Shown here one piece after another: positions 3,500 to 58,206 of a stretch of DNA of 64,000 bases. Position numbers and translations under genes: made by a program. Numbering within the stretch: the stretch's first letter is position 1; the number at the start of each line of letters is the position of its first letter. Source of the DNA: Beroe forskalii (taxonomy: Eukaryota; Ctenophora; Nuda; Beroida; Beroidae); NCBI GenBank assembly GCA_011033025.1, contig WFMF01000254.1:186001-250000 (forward strand), written 5' to 3'. The notes below the pieces were generated by a model. It saw only the letters and a program-made list of their open reading frames with translations, was not told where the DNA came from and searched no databases.

Positions 3500-6400
3500 G
3501 GGGGAAGGGTGTTCTCAAATTTCTTAACTTGCAACAAGGGTAGAAGGGGTTTACCTATTACTGCACCGTGAGTTCGTTTGTCTGCCACTACCAACCACAG
3601 GTAATATCCGGAGTTTAATCGAACTTCACTAAATCATACGTCATGATGATCATACATGACCGTGCCTGATAATTATCTAATGGCCTCATCATTAACCGGA
3701 GATCAATTTCCATGCTGCATACAGGTAAGAGTTTGCTGTAATGATTGATTATTGGATTTGGTGTATCATTGCTTTATTGGCAGTAAAGCATTATCTGGAT
3801 TTGAATGTGTAGGTACATACTCAACCACAGAGATCATGAATGTACAATGAAATGCGTGATCGCATGAAAACTGTTTATCATGTCTAGCCTCCAGAAATAG
3901 AACTTCACTATTCTAACTCAACCAAAATTATCCTCATAAGTTCAAAATTAATGAACCAACAATTAATGTCTAGCCTATCTGTTCGATTATCCTTTAGCTG
4001 GCATTCTCGCCAAAGAACTTAAGAACTTACTTCCTTAATGCCCGTTTCATCCTTTGAGGAAGGTTAATTATAATTTGGTCGATGGATTCAACGTTTTATT
4101 ACAATCAATAGATGATGAAACACAATAAATGCTACACACAGAAGTCAGAATATTGCCTTCTTTTTCTTTTGCTCCGACGAGCGCTTACAGTTTACAATTC
4201 CCTCCCCCATAATGACGGAGGTGGGTAATCGCAAAATAATAACACTCTTTCCATTTTCCACTTTCCAGAAGCAGGACTTAACGGTGATTTCATTTTCCGG
4301 ACGCATTTCCGTTACTTTGACTTATCTCAAAAGAGAGAAGTTAGAGCTGAAGTAATGCTCGAAAATAGGACACAGGACACAGCTGTGGTAGGCAGCAACA
4401 TCATGCTTTATTATGGGTCGTTACATCACTTTCTGGTTTTGGAAGGCTCCTCATGCACTAGAGGCCCCCACACAGTCTTATCAAAAGTCAGATTACATGC
4501 ACCTTCCCATATAACATGGAGTGAAGTGGTCTGGATCCTGTTACAAAACGTCTGAAGTGCCACACAACCGGGCTTTCCTATCAGTTTGTAAAATGTAAGG
4601 AAACACCTGTCACCTAGGTTACTCAGTTACCAATTTACACGATCCAGAGCAGGTAAACATGATTCTACCCAAATAAGCTGCTCCTATAGAGCCCAAATGC
4701 GACTAGCAATCCTAAACTAAATTACCTGATAATTGTCAAGTTTAAGCCAATACGAGTTTAACACACTGGATTTTAACAATGGTATTTGTTTACCTGCGAT
4801 TGCTCAGTCTAAGTCACATTCGTATCACGCACTGACTTCTGATTGATGACGTCATTATCACAGGTTAGAGTGGGGTGTTGATGCTGTCAAGCACCTACCT
4901 GTTGTACGTGGAGTGTGTGCTATAAATAACTCAGGAGATATCTAGCTGGCAGGATGCCAGCAGCTAATTGCAGGCTAGGTGTTACACTACTGACGTGGAG
5001 ACACAGTATTTCCTGTTCTCAAATACACTGAAATGTCTTGAACAGGGTAGGCTGTGTAACAGTACCTGCCAATATCTTGTACATTTTACCTCTGAGTTCT
5101 GAAATGCGCTATCTGATAGACTCTAGTACTGATCACAGATTATATCAGTACATATCCTCGCTTTAATAGGGCCCCAAACAGCTGTTCATGCTGTGACCAA
5201 TCTGCAGCCCAAGAGATTGGGTTGTTGAGGCAGTGGCACGAGGGCGATAAGACATTAACAAACCTTGCTCGTGAACATGAGGATTGGGCTCAATTTTTTC
5301 ATCTTGCTAAGGTAGTAAAACCCTTGTACTACCTGAGAAACGATTAGAAAATGATGCAATGGTCAATCAATCATGTTTAAAATATGACTTGAAACGTATA
5401 GTTCCATCCATTAGCTTAAATCCATTGGCTGAACTGCGTCAATAAAACTAGTTCAGTAGTATCCTGACGTGTAATATCACAGCTACGTTTTGAGCTGGAT
5501 ATCATAAATACTTGTGCCAATTAGCCGAACACAGAGAGCAACTATTTGAGATACGAGACATAGAGAACGTAATTAAACCCGGTCTTCCGACAGAGACTAT
5601 TACATGTCTGGAGTTATGAAGCAGGGGAGGGAGACACTCTGATGGTCAAAGTTCAGACACTCAGAGTATTTCCACATCCCAAAGCAGAGTATTCCTTCCT
5701 TTCGACATTCTCCAAAATATGGTATTTGTGCACAACAAATGCAATCACATTTCATTTTGCTCACAAATTGCTAAATTGTGTAACATTGTGTAACATTTTG
5801 CAGCCTTCTCAAGTGACGTTCTCCAAGTCACGCACAGCGTTACGCAACATCAAACTATTCGAGGGAGGAGCACTGTTTCAGAAGCTCACTCAGCAGCCAC
5901 GTTACGTTAATAAAGAAATAAAGTCACCGAGAAGAGCTGCCCCCATCCAAATAAAATGAGCAAATGGTTATATTTTTCTACTTTTTCATCTCTCAAAACT
6001 TCTGTTTGCTCTCAGCTAAACATGGCGTCTGATAAACCCGTCAGTAATTCCAACATTCAACGCAGAACTAAGAGATTCACTTTACATTAGCGACACCTGG
6101 TGACAGCACTTCCAGTTGAGAACAAGGCCGCATCACTTCAAACGCTCATCCGACCTCGCTGTAACAGAGAGCATGTCATGGGAATTACTGAATGCTCTGA
6201 TAATACTAAATCCGAAAAAAGGGATGATTTATCGCTTTTGGCACATTTCCAATCCCCGTCAATCAAAGATTATCACACTGGAGATACTGAAATGGACTCG
6301 GTATAAGAAACCGGCACGCTAAATCTCAAAAAGCGTCCAGAATATGGGCATGGCGAAATTATTAGTAGGTTAATGTTTTATCATGAGAAATGAGTTAGAT

Positions 6401-6930
6401 CATATTGCAGCACTTATATTGAAGAAAAATATCAAAAAAAGTATGGAATATCAAACTTGAGCTTTTTACGCACATAAAGTTAAAAACACAATATATATCC
6501 CGTTGATGATAAGCGTAATTGAATTACTAGGGACACACAGCAGTGTAAATTGGCTTTTTGATTAAAAACCCACATGAGGCACCACTAAGGGCTTACAAAA
6601 TATAATATGACTAATTATATTCAGAGATATTATTAATAATATCAATTTATTGTAATGAACTAATAATAATGAATAATTAGATATTATTATTCAAGATAAT
6701 TAGATATTATATTCAGGAATAGAAAGCGTTAGAGTGGCAGTGTAGTATGGCAGTGTAACCAGTACACTACTGAAATGTATGATATAGCTTATGAAAGTTG
6801 AGGTAGCAAATAGATAACACCATCTTGATATTCTGTTGAAATTCAGCTGAGTCGAAGTGATGATATAAGCCAATGCCAAGTTCCCCAAGTTTTACAACAA
6901 TTTGATTAAAAAACGATTGCAAAGGTCTTT
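3500..6930. other. No gene recognised, one 43-bp element inside
   Basis: Open frames at 4355-4555, 5642-5959 and 6100-6322 lack family resemblance and splice context. The only named item is the 43-bp dispersed element at 4847-4889. Confidence 0.55.
4847..4889 (+). repeat. 43-bp dispersed TGACGTCA element
   Basis: Starts TGACGTCATTATCA and ends TTGATGCTGTCA, with GGTTAG in the middle. It matches the layout of copies at 12863, 34284, 52380, 52628 and 56995. Confidence 0.65.
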
Positions 6931-6940
6931 GTGTTCATCC

Positions 6941-7119
6941 TCAGAGCATCAAACATGATTTGAAGTTCTCACTTCCTTTAGAAAGACTTATGATTATGTG
7001 TGAGATCAAGGATAAGGAATTGTCAGAGCATCAATCATGAATCATGATATTCTGAAGTTCTCACTTCCTGTAAAAAGACTTATGATAATGTTAGTGTGAG
7101 ATCAAGGATAAGGAATTGT
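6941..7119. repeat. Tandem duplication, ~82-97 bp units
   Basis: Two adjacent copies start at TCAGAGCATCAA (6941 and 7023). Each contains GAAGTTCTCACTTCCT and ends in GGATAAGGAATTG. The second copy carries small insertions. Confidence 0.85.
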
Positions 7120-7227
7120 AGTGACGCAAGTCACAAAACCAATTTGTTTTGTGTCTTTGAATAATTCAATCTCTCACAAAGTTAAGATACTTATTCCTTA
7201 TCCATACACATATCACTGTGTGTACTT

Positions 7228-7252
7228 AGGTGTCTATGTGTGTGCGTGTGTG

Positions 7253-7290
<38 letters not shown>

Positions 7291-7316
7291 TGTGTGTGTG
7301 TGTGTGCGTGTGCGTC
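7228..7316. repeat. (TG)n microsatellite
   Basis: Alternating TG with scattered C interruptions. The apparent cysteine/valine reading frames across it are artefacts of the dinucleotide. Confidence 0.95.
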
Positions 7317-7816
7317 TGGCGTGGACAGAATTTACTGATTTTACACGGAGTATTTGATTTACAGATCACCATGTGTCCTCAAAAGCTCAAATATCGCAGA
7401 AATATCGCAACCTATGGCGATACAACGTGCATATATGTAGCTTTAACTTCTCTAGGTATTCTGATGATATGCAGGGATGGCAGATCTCCTTGCTGAAACA
7501 TGTACAGACTGAACAGTACAGTGTACACGCTGTACACTTATTCTACACGTGTAATGCCGCATATCGTACAGTCACAGCGACAGTTCGCCACTCTAACCCA
7601 TGAAAATGACATCACTCAAGGCAGTCATGTGTAACCATGGAATGAAGCACCTGGTGATGTGTTGCTCCCTACCCCCTTGTAACAAGTTTTAGTAACTCAC
7701 TTATCTCAAGCCCCGCCTTCGACCTTATTTTCAGACTCATCCAAGTTTGTGTGTGTGACTCAGGCATTTCAATTTGAAAATATCACTTTTCACTCGAAAC
7801 ACTCAGTGGCACTTAA

Positions 7817-9585: not shown

Positions 9586-9589
9586 TTAA

Positions 9590-10440: not shown

Positions 10441-10489
10441 AGGGTGAGATTTAGTATGAGAGAGTTCCGTGTTGAACGTAAATATAGTG

Positions 10490-10940: not shown

Positions 10941-10989
10941 AATGGGAAATGGTTGGATAGGGAGTTGAAAGAAATTTAAGAAGAGAGTG

Positions 10990-13900
10990 CGAAAGTAAGA
11001 AACAGAGTTAGTAAGATTGTTAGAAAGAGTGTTACAAAGAGAGTGAGAAAGAGAATAAGAAAGAGAGTTAGAAAGAAAGTTAATAAGAGCTAGGTAGAAA
11101 GAGATAACTCAATAATTCATAGCAGCAGCTGATTTGGTTCACTTATGCATTACTTAGTGTGAACTTTAGAAATATTAAATATTCCCGATGAAACATGGAA
11201 TGAAGAGCAGTTTTAGTCACGTAAGCGCTTAGCGGCTCTAAGGATCACAGCTTGGGAGCTTTAGTGGGGCAAAGTGAGGAGGTTAAGAGGAACTCTGTGT
11301 GAGGAAGAGAGTTTTATCATCGCTAAAAGTTTATAGCAAAAGGTTAGAAGCGGCGGTTGTGATTGGGCAGGATTTTCCAGCCAATCACCGCAATCCATCC
11401 GATCACGTGTTAGGCTAATCCTTTAACGTGATAGGCTGATGGCAACTGGCGCGCGCTCTGCACATCTTGTTCCGTGCCAGTATTATACTGTGGTATTATA
11501 GAACCTATAATATGGAGTGTTGCAAATCATAGCATCATGATAAACACACTCAACACTGTGAACAGGAATATCATTCGAAAAATCATCGTGGCGAATCTGT
11601 CTAGAGATAACTAACTACTCGCCAAAATAACTTAAAGACTGTTAAATACCCAGCCACTTTTCTAGGTATTTCAAATAGCAAATGGCAGAGGCTCAAATTT
11701 ATGAATTTTCATAGTTTTTCATTGAAGGCGAAAGTCAAACGAGGTCATGAATCATCTATTCATTTTGATGTATTTCTCTCAGACATTAACTAAATCTCAA
11801 AGAGTTTATTTTCGAGCTCACATCGAAATCAACATTAAACATGTTTATCATTTAAACTTTAAAACGTTAATAAGTTAACAAAGTCTTTTGCGTCAGCTTT
11901 CAGCACATTAGATACGTCAAGTATAGAGAAATTGCAGTTTTAAAATGCACAGAATGTGCCCAAATGTATTAGGAAATGTTGACATATCCAATGACACGCA
12001 GTACTTGGAATCTTAAGTTTGCAAGCACTCATAATATTTTGAATCACGAATTGTGATTTTCACCAAAACTTTCTTAACCTTCCTCAGTTAAATTTAAATT
12101 TAATGAAGTCAGTTCGTGAAAAAATTCTGCAAAACCATTGGAATTTTCCTCATTCCTGGATTCCTGTAACTAGACTAATGACATTGACATTCCAATGGTG
12201 TCAATATTTCCGCTTTGGGAAATATTCTGGGAAGCAGGCATATTACCATGTAGTGTTGGAACAGAAATGCACGAGTAGAATCGCTATTCCCGGTTACAAT
12301 TACATTACAGCCGCTATTCTAATTGCGGTTTCCGGTGGTAGTCTCAGATTTCTGAAGAAGAAAACCACTTTGGTACGGGATTCCACGACTCTGAAGAAGC
12401 GGAGTGTCTCTTTTTCCAAAACATTGCGAGAAAGAGACGAAGTCACCTGTCGCAATAAAATGACACATTACAACAAGACGCCCCAAGACCTCACCATGTG
12501 ACAGGAGTTTTTAACTTATTTAACGTTTGGGAAACAAGCCAATCTCTTCGCTTAGCACGATGAAAATAATATAATCCATGTTATTTAGCTTTTTATGTTT
12601 TATGTCAAAACAGCACTGGTATTTTACGTGCTAATTACTAAGAAATTTTAGAAAAGAGAACCTGACTTTTGCTAACCAGCTAACACTACTACGCACACAA
12701 CTCATACAATGATCGGTCATTCAGGATTGAGTGCTTCCAATTAGCCTGCCAAACCGTTAATTAAACCTTCGCCAACAACATTCGCTTTTACGTGAATTCC
12801 TAAGGTTTCACGGCCTGATCGGCAGGTTTTATACGCCGCGCAAAGTGATAAGGCAGAAGAAGTGACATCATTATCAGGGTTTAGCGTGGTGAGTTGATGA
12901 CGCTGAACTGACCTATACTCTGCAAGGAGGTGTTGTAACGTACACACGAAATATTATTAAGTCGGTACACTTGACATACCTCGTAATGCCTTACAATTCC
13001 TTACATGAGGGCCATGTGATCAAACCTGCCAGATTTAGTCAATACTTTGAGTGTCGGAGCAATCGTTATACAGTGTGTGACTCGTAGTGGTACTCTTAGG
13101 CTCTTTTCACAATCATGGTGCAAGAGCAACTGAGGATTTGAATTATCATGAAAAGTGTTTAATAGCTGCCTCCTTTTGCGCTCCAATGTATCAAATCCGG
13201 CGGCCGGCATACCAAAGAGCAATATACCACTCGCCAGTTCGCCAGGATTTTGTGTCAATTTCACCCCAACACAACACGTACAAATTGCCACAACGCCTCT
13301 TAGAGCGTGTACAACAGCAGATTACTCAGGAGACATTAAATTTATTGCAAGATGTTAAATCCACGTGAATTATTACAGCGTGGATTACAAAGAAAGGGAG
13401 AGAAACTAGGAAGCTTGATTTTATCAACTGTCATGAAATGATACTTTTTCGTTTTTAAACGCTTGATGAAAATTAATAATGCCTCAAAAGATTTCCACGG
13501 TATCCCATGATGAAAGAATTTGAAAGTTTAGATTCTTTGACTCACTAACTTAAATTTCACAAAGTTCATGAATTATATTGTACAATACGACTGTGAAGGT
13601 ATGAATATCGCTGTATCACTGCTAGGGTTTCTACAAGAGTATTGAATACCAGGCAGCCTCAGACACTTTAATAGCTTATTTTGGTAGTTTTAGGTTTTCC
13701 AGAAAGTAGGAAACAACACTTGCGACAGCATTATTTGCAATAATTGTTTCCTTCAAGATAATTCTAGAAGTAGAATCATTTGGATTTCAAGGTATCATTC
13801 CACTGTGGTACTAGATGCCAGAAATTCATGACGTTTTAGATTAATTTTGTTTCCCAAGCTCGTCACATAAACAAATAAATATTTAAACAAAGCTAAACGT

Positions 13901-17008: not shown

Positions 17009-17737
17009 TCATACCACCTCAGCCATTTGTGGTTCATCTTCATTACACATATTAACCTGAATTTCTGATTGAGGACCAGGCACTGGTGTCTGAGTCATAT
17101 CTAGAATTATGATAATTTGATTGGCTGCCTTCCATCGATTGAAGTAAGTCACATACATTTTGCATTGTGAGTACATAAATGAAATTCCTCCAACAAATCC
17201 AATGAATACAACTCCAATTTTAGTCCAAAAGGCCCAACCAATCTCATTAGCTTGGGCCTCTGAAATCAGTTTGTCCATCAAGACCCATATTGACCATATC
17301 ACACATAATACAGCAAGGAGATGAAATGCTATTGAACATATCACTTTTTTCCGTTCATAAGCTGTAAGATTTAACATTTTCCATTTATGAAATGGTTTGA
17401 GAGTACTCTGTAACTTAAAGTCATAATGACATAGTTCACACTGTTTTTTGTTAGATTTGCCTGACATATTTAACCAAGACTGTAAACATGTTTGGTGAAT
17501 AAATCCAAGAGATCCAGTACATTTACATGGAGAAATGAATCCTTCATCTTCAACACCACAGTGACAAATTCTACATATCTTTTCAGACTTAATAGAAGAA
17601 GTATCCTTGAACTCAGATATTGAACCACTTTCGATATCAGCAGATGGATGTACTCTTTCAGAACTTGGTTCAGAAAGTGGATTTACAATTACTTGCTTCA
17701 AAGGCATCTTTGGAGATGATTTAACAAGCGACATCAA
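17009..17737 (-). CDS. MARCH1/8-type membrane RING-CH E3 ubiquitin ligase
   Basis: A 242-residue protein in one uninterrupted exon. The RING-CH finger is complete, with the C4HC3 ligands Cys55, Cys58, Cys71, Cys73, His81, Cys84, Cys100 and Cys103. Two membrane segments follow (about 133-155 and 172-192), then a short acidic tail. The stretch after the finger (LKPFHKWK, ERKKVICSI, FWTKI, FMYSQCK) matches the MARCH1/MARCH8 branch rather than MARCH2/3 or the MARCH4/9/11 branch. Family members sit in endosomal and plasma membranes and ubiquitinate membrane proteins, driving their endocytosis; the substrate here is unknown. MARCH1/8 genes in vertebrates have introns, so an intronless copy could be a retrogene or lineage-specific intron loss. 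Two in-frame Met codons open the frame; I took the first. Confidence 0.93.
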   Translation of the reverse strand: MMSLVKSSPKMPLKQVIVNPLSEPSSERVHPSADIESGSISEFKDTSSIKSEKICRICHCGVEDEGFISPCKCTGSLGFIHQTCLQSWLNMSGKSNKKQCELCHYDFKLQSTLKPFHKWKMLNLTAYERKKVICSIAFHLLAVLCVIWSIWVLMDKLISEAQANEIGWAFWTKIGVVFIGFVGGISFMYSQCKMYVTYFNRWKAANQIIIILDMTQTPVPGPQSEIQVNMCNEDEPQMAEVV

Positions 17738-18630
17738 TTCAATTTCCTTCTCTCATGACACCTATGTGAAGTGTAATAGATTAGAAAATAGAAAATTTTG
17801 GAAACTATTTTCTCAGCATTCAATAACAGCAACTACATTTCAATCATGGTGCTGTCTAAAGCACACTATGAGAGATCTCATAATTGAATAACTATCAATT
17901 TAAATTATTTAAATTTTCAATAAATAGTTCAACTACATATTATGTTATAGGTATGAGTTCATGTTTGAGAATGATCTTCCACCTTTTTGAGGAGATACAG
18001 GTCTAATTAATTAATTAATTTATCTAATAGCTCCTATTTGTGAGCCCAAGGTACATCATACTAGCAAAAATCTAAATGAAAACCTAATCTTAAATACCAT
18101 AAACGTACAAAAACCATACAACCCTTTTAAAAAACAGTAAGCAAGAAAATTATGAAAGTTCTATCATGACCAACAGCATGTACTAAGTAAATTATGCAAT
18201 ACAGGTCTAGGATTGATGGCAAAATGCAAGTTTACATAGCTTGAGGCCCACTGCTAGGTGTGTTCATTGGTCAAAAACGAGGAGGTAAAAAGGGTTATAG
18301 AAAGAGTTGTTAAACTGCAAAATGATTACTTTAAAAACTTTCTTTGAAACAGCTATTCCTGAAATGGAAAACTTTCTGAACTTGGGCCTCAGAAGCCATT
18401 TTACTACCCCTTTTAACCACCCTTTTGACGAGCTAGGGTAGTGAAAAGGGAGTTGAAAAGGCAGTTGAAGAGGGAATAAACCCCAGATATATATAAATAC
18501 TTCATTCATAAAGTGATGCACCTTCACAAGGTACTCATTATCAAAATTCAGTATGTCTCCCATATAAACGGCTCTGAGTGACGTCACAGATCTAAACGTC
18601 AACTTTTCTGTATCCTGTACCTCACTGTAG
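17738..18630. other. Likely MARCH promoter side, no gene recognised
   Basis: Upstream of the minus-strand MARCH frame. It contains a TTAA-rich run near 18010 and two CTGAGTGACGTCA phrases nearby (about 18570 and 18750), which may be fragments of the 43-bp dispersed element. The 112-codon frame at 18264-18602 has no recognisable domain. Confidence 0.5.
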
Positions 18631-18713: not shown

Positions 18714-18819
18714 TCCTTAAAGCGCTAGGTGCCCTTAATTATATTTTTCTGAGTGACGTCATTGTCATAGATAATGAAGGCTCCCGTTAGTCTTAGTCTT
18801 AGTAAAATGGCCACAGTCG

Positions 18820-31900: not shown

Positions 31901-34900
31901 GCTCCCCCGTACTATCTGGGCTCCCCCGTACTAATGTACTATCTGGTCTCCCCCGTACTATCTGGTCTCCCCCATACTATCTGGGGTCCCCCGTACTATC
32001 TGGTCTCCCCAATACTATCTGGGCTCCCCGTACTATCAGGGCTCCCCCATACTAACTGGGCTCCCCCGTACTATCTGGTCTCCCCATACTATCTGGTCTC
32101 CCCCATACTATCTGGGCTCCCCCGTACTATCTGGTTTCCCCATACTCTCTGGTCTCCCCCATACTATCTGGTCTCCCCCGTACTATCTCCAGTTTTAAAC
32201 TTTACAACACTACTTTATACAATCAAATTTGAGGACGCTGAGCCTCGCTAGCATGTGATAAGGCAGAGTCAGCCGCCAGGGTCATAGATAGGCTACTGAC
32301 TATAAACACCACTTCCCAAAGACTCATTGGCAATTGCCACTTGGTGAGGAAGTGTTGTTTGGAGTGCTTCATTTACACGTGTTACCTCTTTCTGTGTTGA
32401 GTGAGGGAGCAGTACTCCCTATTTCAGTGTTCATTGAAATTGACATTGAATTTGGGAGCGATACTCCCCTTGCTGCACCCTATTCCTCAACGCTTTCTGC
32501 CGCTGAGTCATTTCAGGACGGTTGCTACTCCTGCCACTACTGTTTGGTGTGTAACCCTTGGACCCTCTTCAAGTCCTTGATACGGAGCAGACTGGAATAC
32601 TGTTGCCCAGTGTGGGATCCCCACTTTATCAAGGATATCCAGGCAGTGGAGTCTATCCAGCGTTACTTCACTAAGCGAATAATTGGCACCAAAGATATGG
32701 ACTATTGGGATCGGCTTAAGAAGCTGCGATTGATGTCTCTCCAGCGTAGACGTGAACGATACACGATGATCCATACTTGGAAGATCCTGCAGAACAAGGC
32801 CCCAAATAGCACTGGTTTAGAGTTCTACAGTAATGAACGTCTTGGAATACGGGCTAAGATCCTGCCATTCAACTACAAGGCACAACGTTCAGTCTCAACA
32901 GCCTACGACAACTCATTCGGGGGTAAAGTCAGCTCGTCTCTGGAACTTACTCCCTAAATCAGTCAACTCCGCAACAGCCTTAGAGGCATTCAAAGTAGCC
33001 CTTGGAGACTTCCTCGCACAATACCCGGATAAGCCACCGGTTACGGGTTACACACCCTCAAACAGCAACTCCTTACTCGACTGGAGCTGTGAACGAGGAG
33101 ATGGAGTACGTGGACATCACTGATCCCAACTGCGATCCCTGCTAAACCCTTCAAAATGTATGTATGTATGTATGTATTCTGGTCTCCCCCATACTATCTG
33201 GTCTCCCCCGTACTATCTGGTCTCCCCGTATTATCAGGGCTCCCCCATCCCAACTTGGGCTCCCCCGTACCAACTCGGGCTCCCCCGTACCAACTTGGGC
33301 TCCCCGGTACAATCTGGGCTCCTCTGTACTATCAGGGCTCCCCCGTACTATACTTTCATAATGTATGCTCAAGTTTTGGTCATGAGATGACGCACTACGA
33401 TAATCTCATGATTTGATTAATTCATTATACAAGATTTGATTTAAGTTAAGATAGCTGATAGCTTTTTAATAGCGATACCAACTGTTCCAGTCGTATCATT
33501 TAAACTTAAGTTTTACAATTAGTTTTGTCATCGTAAATTATTGAGAGGGTACTATTGAAGTATTGAGTACTGGAGTACAATTGTCAGTATTTATATGAAT
33601 TTTGAGAGAGAAGCAGAAATTTATCCAACATCCACTTCTTCGAACGACGCAAGTGACAAGTCCGTGTGTGTTTCTAATTCAAAGAGTGTGTAGGTACACA
33701 CTGTACGCAGAACACAGCCGTGTAATAGGTTGTGTGTAGGTATTATATTAATTATCTCATTAAGTTCGTCATGAGAAAATCTCACAGAAAATATGCATAT
33801 GGAACTAAGAGCAAATATCTCACCCAAATATCCGACTAATTAGCATTGGTGCCTGATCTAATCAAGGTATCAATTACCGCAAATATTCGAGTACAGCAGA
33901 GAAAATCTGTAAACACGTTGACAGATATTTTGCGCGGATATTTGCCCGAATATCCCATAAATTCGACTCGAATTTTTACTCGAATTTCCTCTCGCGGATA
34001 TTCGAGTAAAAATTCGACTAAAAATATGCATATGGAACAAGGGTGTAAGTGGACCCGAGTGGACATTGATTCTAAGTGGACCCGAGATGACATTGGGAAT
34101 TTTTTAGTGGTCATTGTTTAGCGCATTAATTTGATCTCAGATTGCATTTGAATTGTTATTGTTCACAGTCTCGGATAATGATCGAGCCACGCAGTATATC
34201 TAATTCAGCAAGCCGGAATAAACCACGATCTTTTCTATTTCTAGTTGCACTAGCCATCAGCGTACGGATAGTCGGTTTAAAAGTGACGTCATTATCATGG
34301 ATTAGCATGTAAAATTGATGTCGTGAAAGCGACTGGATTCGAGCACGACCCATAAGTTGTGTGACTAACCATGCTGCTCCCGCATTACTGAGGGACACAA
34401 ACAAAAGGAATGTGGTGACACGTGACACGAGAGTTTTGAGAGTTTCGGCCAATGACCAGCGATCTCAGGATGTTTTCAGCCAATGAGCGACCAGCTCGGG
34501 ATTACAGTATCATGCAGTTTAAGTGGATGATACTTATAGCACTTATTCCTTTAGACAATGCACCATCTCGTTTTAAATCAGAGTTTTAAGTTCGCTGGGG
34601 CAGCATGCACGTGTAGAAAATCAATTATAATTTCTCAGGTTGTTTAAAATTTGATACTTTGTTGTCATTGATATCATCAGCAAAAAACGCGGAAGAACGG
34701 AAAATAAGATGGCTAAAATTGCGTACTATGATCGAAAATTTAACCTCACAATGAAGAAAAACTAGGAATACTATAGTCAATGCTCTACAAGAATTAAAAA
34801 CCAAAAACTACACTAAGAAAGTTGATTTAAACTTGAAAGTTGAAGCACCTACTTGTAATATCTCATCATTCTGTTGAAGACCTCTGAAGTTAGGAAGGGT

Positions 34901-35173: not shown

Positions 35174-35967
35174 TGTGTCTTTAGCACTGCTACAAACAGA
35201 AGAAAATTAAATTTTACATCAACCAGCAAAGCAACAAATTTATTACTCTCATAACCCCATAACAATATTAACAACAAATTTCAACAACAACTCATCAAGA
35301 AATGATCCAATTTGAGTCATCACATGCCCTTAAAATACTAACGCACCACAGAAGTGGCCAAGAAGTCAATGAAATGTGGCAATAAATTTACAGTGAGGTG
35401 CTGAACCAGTCCCCAAGGAATGTAACAAGTCCAGCCTGGACAATGCTCTCACTAATAAGCCCCACAGGACTGGATACGTTAAAAACACCTAAAACTCGTC
35501 GTCCAGTAGTCTACGGAATTAAAATTAAATTATATTAAATTTATTACATATATAGATTGTTGCGATGGAATTAGACCAAGTTTATTAACAACCGGACCTG
35601 GGTGCTAGATCCAGGAGGCAATGAATTAGTATATATAAGTAATAAGTATTTGACTGCGTAACATTGCCAATATATATTGCATACACACAGGTATATCTCA
35701 GACCATTAAGTCCCATTTAAGCAGAGGGAACCTCGCTGCCTAATTAAATTTAAAGGCAGCAGCCACTGTTCCACAGCAGGCTGCTACTGCTGCTGCACTG
35801 TGCACAGTGGTTACTGCTGACTCCGAGCTGGTTACACACCGTGAGAACACTCCTCAGAGCACCACTCTAAACCCTGACAATGACACCATTCCTCACCGCC
35901 TATATTGTGTCGTGTGCTATTGCTATCATGGTGGAACTGCCTGCCAGTTCCCAGGACTCAGCCTGAC
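35174..35967. other. Upstream flank of the C1q-type gene
   Basis: Holds its presumed 5' untranslated region and promoter. No clear TATA box at the right distance. A partial inverted copy of the 43-bp element lies at about 35861-35888. Confidence 0.45.
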
Positions 35968-37910: not shown

Positions 37911-40900
37911 ACTAAGCGTGGAGCGAGGTAGAGGCAAGAGGACACTAAACCAGGAGGGTGAAGATATCGTTTTCTGAGGCACTATCCCTCAGGATACCTT
38001 ATCGGACATAATTATCACGGACATAATTTTCACAGGCTGAGGTGCTCAGCGTGACAGAAGTGTCCGTGATAATTTTTTCAATAAGGTAGTGCCTACTAAA
38101 CCGAGTGGATTGGATGAATCCCTCGCGCATCCATCGTCCGTTTCGAAGTAGTAAATTTCCTGGCAGTATATTCTTAGATACCGCCAATTTCCTGAGAGAA
38201 ACAGGGCAAGAGTAGCATCTACTCAACTCTTGAAGTAGCGTCCTTTGGAGCTGGTTGATTTCTCACAGAGAACCCGGATATCTCGCCCTCCGGAGACCTC
38301 CCTAACTCAGCAATTAGCAAGATCGATTAACAGGCCTGCCTCTTAGTCGCCAAACACTCCATTTGACCCTGACCCTGTCACCAACACTTTCTAATGTAAT
38401 TTACTGTGGAACCCACCTCCAAAAATAACCCAATATTTTATGAGGATTATATATGTAACGTGAAGCATTGTTCAAATAATTTAACACATCATTAAAAAGA
38501 GTTAGACTGACTGTCTTCGACTTAACAAGGTGTGAAGAAGATCGTTCTCCTAAGTCTTATCGTGACGATCATTACCACAACATAAACTAGACTAACAAAT
38601 CGACCCCTCCAAAAACACACCATTTCTACCCCGCGGGAGGGATGCTATATAACGTCAAAAACACACAAAATCATTATTCGCAGTCTTTGGTTAAACACTG
38701 CGCGCGCAAAACAGTCAATCCGACGTCATCAACTCACTACGTTTATCTATGAAAATGGCGTTATCGCAACAGAGTATTCATTTCGAGCACCTCTAAGCAG
38801 GTTATTTGCCCATCATGGAAGGGGCGATGAAGACAGGCTTAAAGACAAAAAGTACTAGTAAAATTAACGAGGTCATTCCTCTAGAAATTAGGCAACAGTG
38901 GACTGCAACACATTTTGTAAAACATATGCGAGATAAGTAGACACTTCAGATATCGTCATCATCAAAGCTCAGAGTGATGCATTGATGAGGTCTAAAAAAC
39001 CGTTTCTAACGCACAGGGTATTAAAGAGGGGTTAACCCGATTAGCTTCGTGAATAAACCAGTAATTAAACGCACGCGTCCATGGGAACATCTCGCTTTTT
39101 GGGGGTTATGAGAAACATTTTATAGAGGGAAATCTCATTTATGGAAAAACTCTTTTAGATTAATCAGAATTAAATGATAAGAAGAAGCGGTGATTCTTGA
39201 CCGTTATTAAAAAACAAATGAATATTGAAAGCGGGTAGACATAGATTTACAATGAACAATCCAAAGTGGATTAAAATGAACGCTGCCAAATATGAAACTT
39301 CAAAATATCAATAAACGAACACTTGAAAATGGACGTAGACTGCATTATCACAGAAGCGAGGTCTAAGCTGGCGTACATTATGGAAATGATCTGTTCTTCA
39401 TTTGGACAGATATCAAGGACGCTGGCTGTGTCACATTATGTGGGGGTGAATGACGAACAGTGAGAGATATTCAAGTAGCAGGGTAGCACTTGCCACCCTT
39501 CAAATTCCTTCTCCCGTCTGCGTGCCATTCTAGGTAGACACTCTGTCGTCAGAGATTTAGAAGTTTGCACTGTGATCATGACGTCATCTCCCCTGCAGCC
39601 TCCAATCGATCACCGGCCACATTATATATTCTTTCTGGAAAATCTGCCGAGCAGACCCAACAAACAATTCAATTAATCTAATGGAACAGCTACAATGGAT
39701 TAGTTAATGGAATATACCCACGTCCTACAGTAATAGATTGGGTGTTATTATGGTGTGGAAGCACGCAGTATGACGCCAAATGCTAAAGCTTAGAGGAAGA
39801 ATAAATAAAGTGAAGGAAATGAACCATGCGAACAAAGATTCAGACTTCAGAGTCATATGACAAAGTTAGTCATCTGACATCACACGACAATTTGACATCA
39901 CTGGAAATTTGGCATCATTACATCAGTGATGACTCGAATATGTGGATTGACATCACAGACGATAAGAGTTGAAATCATCGGAGGGGAACTATAATTGGAA
40001 CTGTAATCAGAACAACATTCTAGCCAGGTGGCTGGGGAGACGTCTATTAAATCCAGCGTACTTTTCACTGCCAGTTTATGGCATTTTGAGGCAGGAAAAA
40101 TCCAAAGAAATCACATTTGCACACTTCAACTAAATGGAAACTAGCACTATTTTTACTGCAATACTGCAATCTATTTCCATGAAATTCAAGAAACGGAGTA
40201 AAAACACATAATCGAGATTAGGAGCACACGCGTATGCCGTATAGGTATAATGTAGTTGATAAGAGTGATTGTGCACTACGAAATCCTGCTCGGGTAGAGG
40301 GAGAAAGAGAGAGGGTGTCACGCCGAACACAGGGGTATCAGGTGTTATTCTGTCTGGTTACCCTGTCTACACACCTAATAGGATCCTCCGGCCCTCCCAA
40401 TAATGGGTTCCCAGACAATTTCAGGGCTCGGAAAGAAGGCAGGGCGCTGCAACTATCATCATATGGGTAGGAAGGGGGTGAGCCAACCCTTCATGTGTGT
40501 ATGTATTTGAAAGAGTGTAGGTATGTGTATTTAAATCCAATCACAAATGTTACAAATAATTCCCTGGATTATGTTTCATGACAGAACAATGTAATGTTCC
40601 CTGTCGTATACCAATCAGATACAGATGAAATAGTGGAGCGATGGATACGTCGAGCCATGGACATCTCGGAGCACAATGGAACAAGTGATGAAAATATGAA
40701 AATTCGGTGACAAAAGAAGATGTGCGGTCAAAGTTGAAAGATACGTCAATTTGAAGAACATTCTATATGGACCAGGTGTTTTAAAGGGCAATTAATCAAA
40801 CAAAAAATGAGAAGTTATTATAATTTTGATTATTATATTCCAGGTGAGTCGTATGACAGCCTGACTCTGCATATTATAATATCACATATGTTTCTAAGTA

Positions 40901-42277: not shown

Positions 42278-42365
42278 CAGAGCTGATATTTAATGCTGAC
42301 AGTTAAAATTCGTAGTTTTGGATGGTTTACTGTTTTGCCAGCATTTCCAACTCCTCAACACAACC

Positions 42366-43972
42366 ATGGCTCTCTCTTTGATCGATTTGCTGGATTTACC
42401 CATTGGTGAACGGACTGAGGCCAATATAATTCTCAATATTCCTACCTTGAAGAGGAAATGCGATCTGTTTTATCACTTGACTGATAAGGAAGCCTTCCGT
42501 TTGCTCCAGAACTGTGAGCTTATTAGGTCCACGGCAGACATTGCAATTCCAGAGGCAACGGAGAATTTGTGCATTTTATTGAAAGGAAAGGTGTCATTTT
42601 GCCACAAAGCTTACAAAAGTAGCATTAGTCCAACTGAAGAAGAAAAAGAAGGAGAAGAGGACAAAGATGAAAAAGCAGGTGAAAAATCAGATGAAAAAGA
42701 CAAATCAGATGATAAGAAAGACAAAGCGAAAGAAGGAGGAGAAGAAAAGGCAGAGAAAGATCAGGAGATACCCATGACATCAGTGCGTCGACGGACGCTG
42801 GTTTTAGAAATGGTTGATGCTCTACTTGAGCACAGGAAGAGCATGCAAGAAGAGCACAGAAGGAGTATGCAAGAAGAAGCAAGGCGAATGTCTGTCGTCA
42901 ACAAGAAAGCAGCACAGAGTTCCGGCCCTGATGTGGCTCTGGATACAATTGAGGAGGATCTGGAACCTCCCAATATGTTCATGAGCAGGACGGCACTTTA
43001 CGGTAAAACAGTGGTCCAGTACTCGGACGGCTCGTATTTTGGAGGGCCGTGGTGCAACCATGACGTGGAGGCTAGCGCTAAAAACGACACTTTTACTTAC
43101 GTGGCGGATACAAACTCAACGATCATCCTCATACCGCCATCACTCCAGACATCCATAGTGAACTACCACTATCTGAACACGATCAGAGACAAGGAGTCCC
43201 TGCTGCAGTCCCACCACATCAGCAGGCGCCTCCCTAAGGCTCAGCAGTCTGCTCTGCTCCACGAGATGCTGGAGGAGCACTTCGTCCATGGGAACCTGCT
43301 CACTAAGCGCGGAGACACTGCAGATACTGTTTACCTGATCAAGGAGGGCTTCGCTAGACTCTACCTAGACGTTAAGGTGCCCAAAGAGATCCTCCCTGAG
43401 GCAGTCCAACACCTCCCTTCCACTCAGCTCAAACAACGACTCACTACAGTCAAGTTGGAGGTCATGGACGTAGGGCCAGGAGAATTTGTGGGTGGGTTTG
43501 AGCAGCTTATTGGACACAAAACATACCTCTTCAACATTGAGACTACCTGCAAAACAGTGGCGTACAACATGAGGGGAAACCAGTTCCGGGAAATAATGCT
43601 GCGGGAGAATAGCAAGCAGCTCCACCTTTTCAAGGAAGATCTGAAGATGAAATGGAGGATACGACGCGAAATGGCGAACTTCTCCTCTGTCCTGAGACGG
43701 ACAAGATCCTCCGTCGGTTGCTTGGGGAGGAGATCGCAGAGGAGGAGAGCAGTGCGATGGCTGCTCACATTCAGGAAGCAATGAAGAGCGACTCACTGCT
43801 CAGGAGGAAGTCCTCCCTCCCCTACTACATGCACATCAATGTGAGTCCTACTGAGCAGCTAGCTATAACAGAGATACAGTCCATGAGGCCTCCTAATCGC
43901 GGTCCTTTTGCTGACAGAGTGAGGAACAGAATGGCTGAACTTGGCTTCAAGTCAAGGAGAGGCATTAATTAG
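42366..43972 (+). CDS. Cyclic-nucleotide-binding-fold protein (CNBD2-like), intronless, one frameshift
   Basis: I start at 42366 because ACAACCATGGC is a strong Kozak context; an in-frame ATG at 42318 is weaker. Residues ~20-75 begin a first CNB fold (IPTLKRKCDLFYHLTDKEAF, then LLKGKVSF). A Lys/Glu/Asp-rich loop of about 45 residues (~90-135) and a basic helix precede the phosphate-binding region, DGSYFGGPW near residue 220. A second CNB fold spans ~300-425 (TVYLIKEGFARLYLDV, GPGEFVGGFEQLIG). Both cassettes lack the Gly-Glu and Arg of cAMP sites, so nucleotide binding is doubtful. The first frame stops at 43784 in unlikely Arg-rich sequence. The frame one base back is open from before 43652 to 43972 and reads like true coding sequence (KILRRLLGEEIAEEE), implying a lost base near 43660-43700. 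CNBD2 is a sperm and flagellar protein in mammals; that assignment is by resemblance. Confidence 0.8.
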
Positions 43973-46504: not shown

Positions 46505-46818
46505 GGGAAGTAACAGGAAATTTGAAATGAATAGGAAGTTACTTTTTTCGGAATAATACGATACACTTCCTTCAGTAATGAACAGAACAGGGCACAGTAT
46601 CAAATTCCGGATTTAGAAGAAATTGAAAAAAAATGTCTCCAGTATTTTAGTGTACCTGGGAATAGAAATACAGCTAATTTTAAGGAAATGGGAAGTAACA
46701 GAAAAGTTGAAATGAAAAGGAAGTTTCTCATACGGACTGCTACGATACACTTCCTTTAGTAATGGACCGAAAAAGGCAAAGTATCAAATTCTGGATTTAG
46801 TAGAAATTGAAAAAAATA
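46505..46818. repeat. Diverged ~130-bp direct repeat, two copies
   Basis: GGGAAGTAACA at 46505 and 46690 opens two copies. Both contain ACGATACACTTCCTT, AGTATCAAATTC and GAAATTGAAAAAAA. Spacing is 185 bp with clear divergence. Confidence 0.85.
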
Positions 46819-51000: not shown

Positions 51001-54000
51001 ATATGAAAGTCTGGGCGATCATACGGGTCTGAAAAGGAAAACCAAAGAATTTCAATAATGAAATGTCTGAAGACAAAGGCCAATACGATGGTTACAACTC
51101 AAGGGTTGGTAGTCTCAAAAGAAAAGAAGTTGGAATGATGATTAATCAATGTCTCATTGTCTCAATCACCCAGTTATTCATTTCAGAGACTTATAAAATG
51201 TTTATCATGAAAGTGAAATTACCAAGTTAATCTTTACATAGAACCTCTGCTTACCCAGCAATCAGGATGCATCACTTAAACAGCCATTTCAGGTGGGAGA
51301 CAAGGCATCACACTTTGGCAGTTTATACTCGAACTACTGGCCGATGAGAAGTGTAAAGACATTGTTACCTGGACAGAACGGCCGCTAGAGTTCAAGGTGA
51401 GAGTTCTTACTTCTTACTTTCTCTTGGTTTACATCACTCGATTCACATCGGACAGTTCACTTCTGTATTCCTAGTGATTCGATTTTAGACGCACAATGGC
51501 AAAATATGTGAAGTTTAGTAGGTCGTAAGTTGAATTTGAGCTGAAATTTCAGATTTCATGTTGATTATCTTATAACTGTTTTATCGGGATATCATTGGGT
51601 TTCGATAAAATCCTAATTATCTTCAACAGCTCGGAACCTTTTTCCTCGTACTGTGTTTTTCAGTTTCCGGTAAAACGTTTCCGTTACTCATAACAATTAT
51701 TACTCAACAATTACATGACAGCATATTTCCCATATTTCTATGACAAACTTACGCTGCTTCCGTGACAACATCATGTTCCCATACGAGCACTGCCACACAT
51801 TTCCTTGCCAACAGCCAAGGTTATATTTCCATATTTCATAAATTGTTGCCACATTCATATCCATGCTAATCAGTAATACTGCATGCAGACGAGCTACTTC
51901 ATATCCTTGATAACTGGCAGTTCACAATTTACTCATCATTAAACACGCGATGTGAACACACGCAGGCACATAGTAGCTTCACTTTGAAAGCAGGTTAAAG
52001 GAAGGGTTTGCAAAAATAAATATCACACTCCTGCATCTCGAGATATTCATCATGCTCCTTTTTTGCATTATTAGCCACGCAAGATATGGAAGTTTATGTC
52101 AACCAATTCTTGTCTCCTTTTCAGTATAAAAGTCACGTTTGATATGACATAATTCGAGCAATTCATGTTTCCTTTTATAGCGTTGTTAGATACAACCTCC
52201 TGACAGTTTTACAGAACACGTTGGGGGTATGAGATGGTTCGTGCGTCAATCCAATGACTCACCCTGTACACGTGGGTAACACACTCAATCATTAGGTGTT
52301 CAGACACCCAAATATTTGCCATTACGTCAACCTCCTTTTAGGAAGTCTTGTTATTTATAGACCACGGCAGTAAGATGAGTGACGTCATTATCAGGCTTTA
52401 ACACGGTGAATTGATGACGTCACACCGCCTTACTCCCCCATAGCCAGCCTTATACGGTATAGAACACATACATAAAATGGGTCCTAAAATCTCACTCCAG
52501 CTATGTCATACAACAGCACAAACGTACCTAGCCGGTACTAAAGAACATTTTTCAGTTAATAAGTCCTGAATGATTATCAGTATCACATCACACTATTTGA
52601 GGCGCGCAAGAGTACTAGACGATATAGTGACGTCATTATCATGAATTGAAATGGTGAATTGATGATATAAAACAGGTTATTTGGTCGAGCACGGCATTAT
52701 TGTGAAGTTCATCACATGTCTTCGATAACTGTATTTCCGGTTTAAAACTGAGAATTTACCAGCTCGGTTTAATAGATCACTATACCATGAGTTGGTACAT
52801 GGAACTGAAATAGGAACTTTCATCCTAATCACGAGAATAGAAACAATCATGTACTCAAGGGTTTAATTCTGCCGATAAATATAATCACGAGGAATTATCA
52901 TTCTCCTAAAAACGTGGTATTTGTGACCATAAAAAGAGAACGGGCTTTCTGTTTGTTATGGCGACGAAAATTCGGTGGAAATTCTCATTCCACCATAATA
53001 TTGAGTGTGATTGAATCAGTAAAATAGTGGGTCGAATAAATCACGGACAACAAACTCTAGAATACCAATAGAGTGTACGAAAATAAAAACAAAAATATTC
53101 GTCCCCCGTTTTTAGTAGGAGTACGAAAATAAAGCATTGAAAGCTGCAGATAAAATAATAAAAGAACAGGCCAAGCCATTTCCGAAATTATAACATACGC
53201 CGCAATATATATAGCTATTCGATGCAGAGCCCAATTAATGCGTTGTAATGATCACAATGAAGTCAGGCCAGCCCTACCAAAATGACGTGTTACAATGGTA
53301 GAAAGTGAAGAGCTACCCTTGACAACCTCGCATAAATCATCGCATTTTATTGTAAACTTAAACCTCGCGTAGGGAAAAGGACGGATCATCGTCACAAGGT
53401 CATCATTCTAAACCATGATAACGAGGTCACTCTTAACCACTGGTTGCTCGAGCAAGGCAAATGATAACCAGAGGCCAATAATTACGGAGTGATTGGACCT
53501 GAGTATTGAGTCTAGTTAGCAAATTAACAAGTAATCAAGGCTTGGCTGTCAGTACTTCAGTAGTGCAGTACAAATAGTAATTCCTATTTATAGCGAGCAA
53601 CTTCACGTCGGAATGGTAACTGCTGGTTAAACTGGTTGTCACAGTGAACATTGTCACTTTTTGCCATTTGAAGGAGTAGGGTGGTGGAACATGGGGAAAA
53701 TGACTATTTATGGTGTCATTCTGATAAATGCTGTGTCAGAAATCGGTTAGTGGTTCCGGTTGGTGTTGAAATAATAAGGAACGGACAACTGGGAAACAAT
53801 TCAGTCCTTCATAACTCCAATGTAATAAACTGGATTTTTCCGTGCTTGTGGTTTACTGGTTTAACCACCACACACAAGAAAAATGGGTGGCTGACAGAAT
53901 TGTAAACGTCCGAAATAATAAATAATGTAGCCCATGATCCACCCAATCTAACCTTTGATCTATCAAACTAACCCATGACCCAGTGACCCACCAAATTGAT

Positions 54001-57000
54001 CCTATCATCCACCCAATCTAACCCATGATCCAGCCAAATCTTACTCACAATCCACCTTCATTCCACCCAATGTAACTCATGGGCCATGATCCACCCAATG
54101 TAACTCATGATCCAGCCAAATCTTACTCACAATCCACCTAATGTAACCCATGATTCACCCATTGTAACCAACGATCCACCCTATTTAACCCCTGATCCTT
54201 GACCCAGGTGATTAACAGCAAGGAGATAGCAGATCGGTGGGGGATCAGGAAGAACCGCCCTAAAATGAACTACGACAAGTTGTCCCGTGCCCTGCGGTAC
54301 TACTATAGGAAGAACCTTATACAGCACGTGCCCGGCAAGCGACAGGTGAGAAACCAATCGGGCGTCAATTGGGCAAAACCACGAATTAAAATTAGAATTA
54401 GAATAAGAATTAGTAATGCTGGAGCGGAAATAAAAAATAAATTTTAAGTAGTTTCAAAATGTGCACAGAGCATTCAGGTGTCAAGCCGATGTTGACAACC
54501 ATTTTGTTTGCTATTAAATTTGTAACTTTTAAGAAGAAAATTGAGAAAATATTAATTTCATAATTCAAATTCTTTGATAACTCAAAAACAAGGCACACAG
54601 GACGGAATTCAGACCAATATTATAGAAATTGACTTTTATATACGCGTTGAACGCTGATAAGCCCAATTAGTGACGGGTAGAATTAGCTGTCCAAAATTCG
54701 TCATATTTCGATGATTTCATAGATCTCACATAGGCTTATATAGGGATTAGGGTAGATGGGAACATGCACTAACTTTGGGAGAAGTCAATAGGATGGTAAT
54801 TAGAATTAATCTGAAATCATCTGAAAAATCTCAAATAAGCCCATATAAAGGGGATTGGTTCATCGACATTTCGTCGAACTGAGTTGTAACGAAGATGGTG
54901 TTTTAGACTTATATTTCACTCAATAAATAGGTTATTTCAAACTTTTGCTTTAGCACACTTCAAGAATTCAATAAACTAACATCAGCAAACGGTATTCTAC
55001 CCCCACCAAACACAGACACTAAACAGCTATCTTCTCTGGACCTTCATCAATCTAAGTCCCATCAAACGAAAAACAATCACTTATCCTTATCAGCTCTTTG
55101 ATCTCCCTTATCAGCTCTCTTACCTCCCTCATCAACTCTCTAACCTCCCTTATCAGCACTCTAACATCCCTTATCAGCTCTCTAACCTCCCTTATCAGCT
55201 CTCTTATTTCCCTTATCAGCACTCTTATCTCCCTAGTAAGCGCCCCTCATTTCCTTATTGGGTCCTCTTATCTCCCTTATCAGCACTCAATAAGTTCATG
55301 TTAGCCCCACAATAACAAAACTCCCTGCCAGGTGTATTTCTTCGTGGAGCACCCTGAGTCGCTGGACTTCACGCAGCTCCTGAACGCGGCGCTCTCCACT
55401 CACCCCCTCCGGGCTGCAGCTGCAGGCAACAGGAAGCAGTCAGCCTTCACCAGCGTCAGCACTACCTCCAAGAGACGGGCTTCCGCCCCCGAAATACTCG
55501 CTCCGAACAAGGTACTCGGGGGAATGTTGGAATGATATTTGCTGTTTTCTGATGAATTTTAATTTCCTCTTATTTGTGAAAAAAGAAGCACCTTCTAAGT
55601 TTTGTAAAAAAAGGTTCTAGACATGAGAAATGGAGCTAATAGGCGAGCTAATTAAATAGGCGAGTTGACATCCTCAAATTGGCATCTAAACTATAATGAT
55701 GACATCACTTTCATCTGTCTATTATTTGCGTCCTTGTCATGTAGAGAGGTCTGGAATGTTCTTCTGTTTGCACAATGTATCCTAGAGAGAAGGAGGAAAT
55801 AGGGGGGCTAGAAAAGAACTTCTTGAGATTTTCTTTTAGACTTCCTTCCGATGATCCATAATATTATTCCAGAAGCTGCTATATTCCAGAAGCTGCTATT
55901 TAATACACCGGCCGGAAATGTAAGGATTGTCTTCATAGGACAAGGAATTGAGCGAACTAGTTAAGTATCCAAATTGTAGCAGTCTGCAGTTGAGCCAGAC
56001 AACGAAGAAGTCTAATGTTGCGCAGAAACAGTAGACCATGAAATGTCATCATTTGACATTACCCTTATGTGTATACTGTTTACTCTTTGTACGCGTGTGG
56101 AAGGAAGGGGATTTTACAGAGCACCCTTATAAACATGACGTGATGTGAAGATAGCATGAAACCAAGCTTGAGAGAGGTACTGAGTGGTTATTGACAATGT
56201 AACACTCATTATCACTCAATGATAAGCAGGAAACAACATGGTGTCATCAATGATTTGCCTACTTTTAGAATATCCAAGTTATAAATATAAGCGGATTGCG
56301 GAGCCGAATTTGAAGCCGCTAAACTTATATGAAGCTCAGATCAGAAGTGTTGTAGCCGGAACTGAGTTCATTGCTTACGACAAAATCACACCATCGCACA
56401 TCACAGCTTCCTACTTTTTTATATCACTTTACAATATCACTGTTCATCACCTCACATCATGGTATCATCCCATATCTCGCGACATCATCTCATGATCTCC
56501 CTCGCACCGTGACGGAGCAACCAACAAAACCTGAAACTGATAAGCACTAATTGGCGCTCATTAACAGCTCGTCAAAACCCAGTTACAACGTGACGAAACA
56601 CCGCACGAAACTCGGGAGAAGTAAAAGTCTCACGCCCGCCTATCAGTGATTTAAACCATCCCATGCTGACAGTTGCAGAGTAAATATTATATACCAGCTG
56701 TTTCGTAACGTATCCCTTGTAACTATACGTAATTAGGAAATTATTCCGCAAAGTCTGGGAAGGTATTTGAAACGTGTGCCCTGTTCATATAACTTCCTGT
56801 GCCTGATAAACAGGCGGTTAAACGTAGTTAAATTACCGCGTTATGCCATGATAATGACGTCATCTCAACAGCTTCGTTTTATCGCGTGGGTATTAAAATA
56901 CGATGATAGGAGAAAATACCAGACATATCTTCTGCGACATAACATTATCATTGGAGGGATGCCACTGTTATTAATAACAGTATGCAGATGCGAGTGAGAT

Positions 57001-58206
57001 CATTATCACGGTTTAGAATGATGAATTGATGACATCCCACCACCTACTTCCAGTGTAGAGCTATTAGGATATAGGATGAGAGGATGAGAAAATGCTAGAC
57101 ATCTCATCTGAGAGATGATATCATAGGTTAAATGGGACAGTTCACAACGATTATATTTGGTCAGTAAACTTTCCTCCAGAAACCCATACCCTGGTCGGAG
57201 AGAAATGGAAAGCAATTGGATAATAGTTTGAACAAACATCTGAGGGAATCGCTAATAAGAGCAATAGGGATAATGGAGAGGGCTATAATTGGGACACTGT
57301 GGTACATATTCTGAGATCGGAACTATTGACCAATATCGTTACTAATAGTTACGGTAGTGAGATGGTTACCAATGTGGGCACTACCAATAGTTACGGTGAC
57401 AGTTCAAACTGCAGTTTGCGCGCCATTTGTGTGCATGGCATAAGTTTGCTCGGCGCACATGCATGTTAGTCGTGCCGCGCACACAAAAGACGCGCAACGT
57501 GCAGTTCGAACTGCCCCTGTTCCGGGAATACGATGAATAGCAACCCTCATTTCCTCAGAGACCACGCGAGTCAGAACCAGCACCGCTCTCCATGCTACGC
57601 TTCCATGGTAACATGGTGTCACCACAGCAACAGACACTGGTGTCACAACAGCAACAGACACTGGTGTCACAGCAACAGCAACATCTGGTGTCACCGCAGC
57701 AACTGTTGTCAATGCAGTCTCCCTTTACCCAACAGATACCACATTTCATCAACACAGGTATATACTTAATAGACAAATAATAATTTGAAAAACTGTACCT
57801 TGTATTTCATATCGTCGACAGTCTCCTGCGTAGTCGATGTGAAGTCGTAGTCTTTACACAGGACTCTACTTCTTCTTGTCATGGTCATGAGACCTGCCTA
57901 TAAACAGTTGAAAACATCAGATCGAGCAGATGAGAAAAGCATTTAATATGAAAATATTAAATAAGTATTTACAACATAAATTCCCTCACAGGAAAGATAC
58001 ACCCTGACCTAAGACAAACCACGCATCACCACCAACACCCCATGGTAACCCTGGAAACCCTTCTATCTACGGCTGCAAACAACCCGGCCCTTCTGGCAGC
58101 ATCTTCCTTCATGATGACACCCCCGACAACACTGACAACACCCCTGACACCACCCACCACCTTCCAAACAGTGCTGGATTCAGGGCTCGTCAAGAGACCC
58201 CTCTGA
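48083..58206 (+). CDS. ETS transcription factor with Pointed domain, GABP-alpha-like (5' end missing)
   Basis: Exons: 48083-48216, 48637-49121, 49292-49434, 49610-~49723, ~49917-50020, 51293-51396, 54208-54345, 55332-55511, 57559-57757 and 57992-58206 (stop TGA). Exons 1-2 carry a Pointed/SAM domain ([33 protein letters not shown]). A Ser/Glu-rich linker follows. Exons 6-8 form the ETS domain: [36 protein letters not shown], and the recognition helix [14 protein letters not shown] with both core-contacting Arg. Exon 9 gives QTLV repeats in a Gln-rich stretch; the tail is Thr/Pro-rich. The sequence after DP in the Pointed domain and the LWQF...CKD block resemble GABP alpha, which binds CCGGAAGT and controls respiratory-chain and housekeeping genes. 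Vertebrate GABPA lacks such a long C-tail. The junction 49723/49917 is out of phase with the obvious GTGAGT donor; a donor at 49728 would fix it. N-terminal exons were not found. Confidence 0.93.
52380..52422 (+). repeat. 43-bp dispersed TGACGTCA element, best copy
   Basis: TGACGTCATTATCA, GGCTTTAACAC, GGTGAATTGATGACGTCA: both ends are perfect TGACGTCA palindromes. Lies in an ETS-gene intron. Confidence 0.85.
52628..52670 (+). repeat. 43-bp dispersed TGACGTCA element
   Basis: TGACGTCATTATCATGAATT, then GGTGAATTGATGATAT; the right palindrome is lost. Second copy in the same intron, 248 bp from the first. Confidence 0.8.
53397..53430 (-). repeat. 43-bp dispersed element, inverted and shortened
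   Basis: On the minus strand: TGACCTCGTTATCATGGTTT, then AGAATGATGACC; about ten bases are missing before the right end. Confidence 0.6.
53930..54190. repeat. ~21-bp intronic minisatellite (ATCCACCCAATGTAACCCATG)
   Basis: Degenerate tandem units ending just before the acceptor of the second ETS-domain exon. Confidence 0.85.
55085..55290. repeat. 21-bp intronic minisatellite
   Basis: About ten copies of TATCAGCTCTCTAACCTCC (plus CT). It lies just upstream of the exon at 55332 and is pyrimidine-rich. The Ser/Leu/Thr frame across it is a repeat product. Confidence 0.9.
56823..56862 (-). repeat. 43-bp dispersed element, inverted
   Basis: On the minus strand TGACGTCATTATCATGGC, ATAACGCGGTAATTTAACT: first half perfect, second half diverged. 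Confidence 0.65.
56995..57037 (+). repeat. 43-bp dispersed TGACGTCA element
   Basis: TGAGATCATTATCACGGTTT, AGAATGATGAATTGATGACA: one or two changes in each end motif. Confidence 0.8.
57400..57513. repeat. Small inverted-repeat element
   Basis: 25-bp ends CAGTTCAAACTGCAGTTTG... (57400-57424) and their inverse at 57489-57513 differ at a few positions; each end itself contains the palindrome CAGTT(C/T)(G/A)AACTG. 114 bp in all, GC-rich centre, inside an ETS-gene intron 45 bp before an exon. Confidence 0.85.

Follow-up and report, generated by a model that had tools for sequence, protein, structure and literature searches.

The 43-bp stretch repeated through this region of the Beroe forskalii genome is very probably the core of a palindromic, MITE-type DNA transposon. 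In its better-preserved form this is about 101 bp long, with inverted repeats of about 25–28 bp on either side of a core whose two CRE-like octamers are spaced by 35 bp. The element would have inserted at TA, duplicating this target, and spread as several subfamilies, reaching thousands of copies that lie in clusters and in either orientation, after which the copies would have decayed neutrally. The window that we analysed is a stretch of 64,000 nucleotides (C308:186001-250000; assembly of 216 Mb in 1,134 contigs; G+C 40%). The 43-bp repeat itself is real and far above chance.

Copies in the window and in the genome

All nine copies described in an earlier note on this DNA are present, each within 10 bp of where that note had put it and identical to the consensus at 29–39 of its 43 positions. 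A TGACGTCA palindrome at each end, as the note describes, is a feature of the consensus but not of most copies in the window, since both palindromes are present in only one of the nine (52380). The left-end TGACGTCA is intact in five (4847, 34284, 52380, 52628 and the minus-strand copy ending at 56862) and altered in 12863, 38763 (minus), 53429 (minus) and 56995. Two partial traces had also been reported; the one near 35861 is a real copy (35846-35888, minus strand), while the one near 18754 belongs to another repeat, family C, which shares mainly the left block. Together with 35846-35888, the unlisted copies are 7614 (minus) and 38951 (plus). Parts of the arms survive in window copies, for example TTATACGCCGCGCA at 12829.

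4847..4889, plus strand: core copy, 34/43, left CRE intact; no arm was seen, and the flank on the left resembles a tandem-unit end
7572..7614, minus strand: core copy absent from the earlier note, 31/43
12829..12905, plus strand: core copy with outer end; core 12863-12905, 36/43; outer end TTATACGCCGCGCA at 12829, at the 34-bp distance ahead of the core that young copies show
34284..34326, plus strand: core copy, 35/43, left CRE intact
35846..35888, minus strand: core copy, 30/43; left arm ATAGGCGG upstream
38721..38763, minus strand: core copy, 30/43; downstream GCGCGCAGTGTTTAA, which resembles the outer end
38951..38993, plus strand: core copy absent from the earlier note, 31/43
39544..39586, minus strand: doubtful old copy, 29/43, matrix score 22.8
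52380..52422, plus strand: best core copy, 39/43, both CREs intact, followed by right arm CACCGCCTTA
52628..52670, plus strand: core copy, 35/43, left CRE intact
53387..53429, minus strand: core copy, 32/43
56820..56862, minus strand: core copy, 29/43, left CRE intact, followed by right arm AACCGCCTGTTT
56995..57037, plus strand: core copy, 37/43, followed by right arm CACCACCTA
3358..3400, plus strand: left block within a family B repeat
18745..18779, plus strand: left block within a family C repeat

A 43-column weight matrix trained on exact copies was run over both strands of 294 kb with a threshold of more than 13 bits; most of this sequence had been picked for holding the motif, the exceptions being the window and L029 and L030. 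The matrix returned 171 matches (a few places were read on both strands), against a mean of 0 to 0.2 in first-order Markov sequence for the same 294 kb, and the 16 kb of L029 and L030 contained no matches. Within the window, 15 matches fell at 14 places, 52380 being read on both strands, and these places comprise 12 good copies, one doubtful copy (39586, minus) and one within another repeat (3358). Counted by identity, 13 window positions matched at least 26 of the 43 bases, compared with 0, 1, 1, 2 and 0 in five Markov nulls.

The genome-wide count that the earlier note had proposed as a check bore the repeat out. The exact 14-mer TGACGTCATTATCA, which forms the left block of the core, occurs 7,719 times in the 216-Mb genome (3,926 forward and 3,793 reverse) against three occurrences of the reversed control (one and two), and most but not all of these 14-mers belong to the MITE-type family. 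With up to two mismatches the count rises to 31,278 against 2,076, families B and C being included, and both palindromes occur together 626 times against 0, with tandem units included. The copies are clustered: for the first 100 places in C1, reduced to 91 after merging tandem ones, the variance-to-mean ratio in 50-kb bins was 3.97, and the maximum over 2,000 random draws was 2.06. Separately, five spacings of exactly 22 bp between TGACGTCA octamers were seen among the first 100 octamers listed in C1; such pairs lie at L007:1861 and 1883 and at L010:40 and 62, and the two pairs read fall outside the 43-bp core.

The window also holds three large minisatellites (23422-24774, 31205-32188 and 36983-37483, with units of 19, 19 and 22 bp) and an open frame at 32292-32957 (plus) that on visual inspection resembles the terminal part of a non-LTR reverse transcriptase and has no Pfam match at E 0.001. 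Pfam domains, RINGv and cyclic-nucleotide-binding (cNMP), were found in two of the seven frames searched, 17009-17752 (minus) and 42300-43784 (plus), and nothing in the seven bears on the 43-bp repeat. Rfam gave no matches in the window at gathering scores, and viral contigs gave none to a 30-base pattern of the core.

Ends, target site and relatives of the full element

A search with a long-armed query gave 1,629 candidates; the 40 copies scored, counting that of the query itself, have 87–100% identity over 86–121 bp. Twenty young copies were fetched, and 19 were used after L050, whose right half was not found, had been dropped. The inner arm anchors lie 77 bp apart in all 19; adding 12 bp to either side makes 101 bp. 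The flanks look mutually unrelated. TA stands at the left end in 16 of the 19, at the right end in 16 and at both ends in 13. The ends of the element are of the TATACGCCGCGCAC type; those of the young consensus pair at 24 of 28 positions, and one copy folded as a DNA hairpin reached -36.9 kcal/mol (z -9.0). When arm pairs were sought without reference to the core, the eight rows found, at seven distinct places, all contained the core at three or fewer mismatches.

For an empty-site search, the flanks of 13 copies were joined with one TA and searched in the genome; only L047 has uninterrupted relatives. L051–L055, the five fetched relatives whose matches cross the junction, read GTTAAC where L047 reads TTA, element, TAA; in the TTAA of these five empty paralogs of the site, TA is present once. 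L056 holds the element at this site as well, and L058 matched the right flank only and is not informative on the junction. A weaker second case, judged by eye, is the upstream flank of L049, for which a repeat neighbour has GTAG at the matching place. No empty sites were found for the 12 window copies, with 1,901 of 1,920 flank bases searched (the last right flank was short). That clean empty sites were recovered for one copy only counts against the MITE as the best explanation.

The element thus combines shortness and high copy number with terminal inverted repeats and a target-site duplication, as a MITE does, and the duplicated target is TA, as in Tc1/mariner. It would have been mobilised in trans by a putative TA-specific transposase, most likely a Tc1/mariner-like one. 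The earlier note had suggested a tiny mobile element or the fixed core of a larger repeat, and each is right in part, the 43 bp being the centre of the element of about 101 bp. Alignments extended outward do exceed 43 bp, an outcome that the note had named as refuting if it led into a known repeat; the larger repeat matches no known name in the collections searched.

Tc1/mariner-type MITEs such as Stowaway are short, have inverted terminal repeats, duplicate TA and reach high copy numbers, and the superfamily of miDNA4 from Xenopus tropicalis likewise duplicates TA. The element resembles Stowaway-type MITEs in all four respects, but differs in that its core is better conserved than its ends, and the ends, TAC/AAC..GTA, are unlike those of many members. 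In PMC9659126, miDNA4 is classed as a Tc1-mariner MITE containing a satellite motif; on that account, both are MITEs of a TA-duplicating superfamily whose interior matches a tandem repeat unit. Here the unit is 35 bp, as long as the spacing of the two palindromic octamers, and most fetched arrays show no arm at seven of nine matching bases.

Helentrons insert without target duplication, and the TA duplication at the one resolved site speaks against a Helentron of the Pearl/DINE-1 type. According to PMC7492417, bivalve Pearl elements with central repeats were later re-classed as Helentrons; as portrayed there, they are, like the present family, small dispersed elements sharing a unit with tandem arrays, whereas here TA is duplicated and the element is palindromic over nearly its whole length. 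No name for the repeat was found in the sequence collections and literature searched, nor was the exact 14-mer TGACGTCATTATCA found in that literature. Searches for papers on CREs and transposons and on MITEs and palindromes, PMC1796609 among them, yielded no evident description of the family.

Core, arms and tandem arrays

In 116 copies chosen by their right half only, the left 14 columns are 76–94% conserved, and the seven columns before the left block 35–47%, a comparison without gaps in which indels add to the drop. Among 114 single copies, the left arm exceeded the 95% point of random sequence, gaps allowed, in 62% and the right arm in 61%. A stricter test on the same copies found the left arm in 60, the right in 35, both in 19 and neither in 38; if the arms were independent, both would be expected in 18.4. 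The mean core score was 47.4 with both arms, 42.4 with one and 44.3 with none. Among 20 copies with both CREs intact, hand-picked from 100 listed of the 626, six have both arms and five neither, with a neighbouring unit on the left in three and on the right in three. From these counts in single and both-CRE copies, the arms are frequent yet less constant than the core, and near-consensus cores without one or both arms are not explained by simple decay of one MITE. Co-variation of the arms within copies, as RNA-like selection might leave, was rejected: pairing averaged 15.6 within copies and 14.4 between them, the best of 2,000 permutations reached 15.8 and so exceeded the observed mean, and the best pairs were copies of the long-armed subfamily.

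The left block is the least variable of six segments in the 19 young copies; its 14 bp deviate at 3 of 228 non-CpG sites against 53 of 1,121 elsewhere (p 0.017, post hoc, with the outer 8 bp of each end excluded). An inverted duplication shared by L014 and L015 (about L014:3780-8100), about 92% identical where aligned and containing several shared cores, served as a neutral test. Its cores are identical at 91.2% of 262 bases, other positions at 91.9% of 3,240, and those near the core at 92.6% of 2,081. Three further pairs gave 42/42 in the core and 276/307 in the flanks (L047/L056), 33/43 and 216/275 elsewhere (L042/L057), and 43/43 and 258/268 elsewhere (L059/L060). When pooled, the four pairs look neutral (357/390 identical in the core, 3,728/4,090 in the rest), although single pairs scatter and the unchanged L047/L056 core leans against neutral decay. 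The core thus changes about as fast as the rest in duplicated DNA, and constraint on individual copies is not seen. Because resident copies look neutral, constraint on the copy-making elements would better explain why the left block varies so little from copy to copy, and we infer that the left 14 bp may be constrained in source elements, not in resident copies.

The earlier note had found the repeat not in tandem. This is true of the window but not of the whole assembly: 606 pairs of exact 14-mers are separated by 18–24 bases, against 0 in the control. The first 100 pairs form 43 arrays with periods of 35 (79 pairs), 34 (11), 36 (7), 38 (2) and 32 (1). Spacer identity is 0.89 within arrays and 0.66 between them, a difference that none of 2,000 permutations equalled; such array-specific spacers suggest that arrays have grown locally many times. 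The unit of 35 bp matches the octamer-to-octamer spacing in the MITE core, suggesting an origin by recombination or slippage between the two palindromes. In 16 fetched arrays, an arm at seven or more of nine bases was found on the left in none of 11 scorable arrays (control 3.1%) and on the right in two of 14, L083 and L084 (control 4.8%); in L020, related to L083, a right arm is visible by eye. As the same test finds a left arm in only 28 and a right arm in 26 of the 114 single copies, the arrays cannot be said to differ from single copies, and the idea that arrays lie within the arms of MITEs is not borne out by this test either.

These arrays bear on a reading that we consider unlikely, namely that the core and not the armed MITE is the spreading unit, with 35-bp arrays and single units dispersing alone (for instance as excised circles) and the MITE being one carrier of a mobile minisatellite unit. 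The tandem pairs absent from the control, the 79 of the first 100 listed at exactly 35 bp in arrays with spacers of their own, the few arms among the fetched arrays by the seven-of-nine test, and the commonness of cores without recognised arms all favour it. However, arrays are not clearly poorer in arms than the single copies in this small sample, their period is that expected if arrays arise within the MITE core, and no empty site was seen for an arm-less copy.

The left block also occurs in two other repeats, families B and C, which were found at 569 places (24-mer at up to two mismatches) and 1,318 places (35-mer at up to three mismatches), with 0 in either control. Three copies compared per family align beyond the left block, and the two families probably captured a core copy before spreading. 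Family B lies at window 3358, L002:1501 and L011:4848 and carries GGGGATTTTT and AAAAATCCCC along with the same left block. Family C, at window 18579 and 18754 and L026:4696-5135, has CRE octamers, CCTAA-rich stretches and CCCATATAA near its ends.

The CRE-like octamers and the meaning of the family

Beside the preferred reading of a MITE-type element stands a further proposal, which we hold to be quite unlikely. The 14-bp TGACGTCATTATCA would be the part that matters for spread, bound in source elements by a host bZIP factor of the CREB/ATF type or by a transposase; it would hence be fixed across subfamilies and be present in three or more repeat families that otherwise differ, and would let the 35-bp core multiply and travel with or without inverted repeats.

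That the repeat is instead a regulatory module under selection, binding CREB, ATF or AP-1 and spread or kept by the host, appears very unlikely. The bare octamer TGACGTCA does occur 30,002 times against 7,048 for its reverse, 31 of the first 100 octamers listed in C1 sit in exact 14-mers (two of these places, 79706 and 340847, being family B), and the left 14 bp are the least variable in young copies by the post hoc comparison above. Against this, the four pooled duplicated pairs show no excess conservation of the core, and in eight of the nine window copies given in the earlier note one or both octamers are missing. The earlier note had drawn its CREB/AP-1 module from the octamer, and the duplicated copies do not bear the module out; CREB/AP-1 function of intact copies is possible, the support for it being confined to the octamer and its abundance. 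A chance motif or low-complexity artefact has practically no probability left, being refuted by the reversed-pattern and Markov controls.

The biology of this MITE-type family with its TA duplication is ordinary apart from two habits: the core is steadier than the ends, and it has been converted repeatedly to 35-bp arrays. Transposition accounts for the dispersed 43-bp motif, and regulation is not needed as an explanation. The family offers a natural case of how thousands of transcription-factor-like sites can be spread through a genome by a transposon, and of how a MITE core can become a minisatellite again and again with the same unit.
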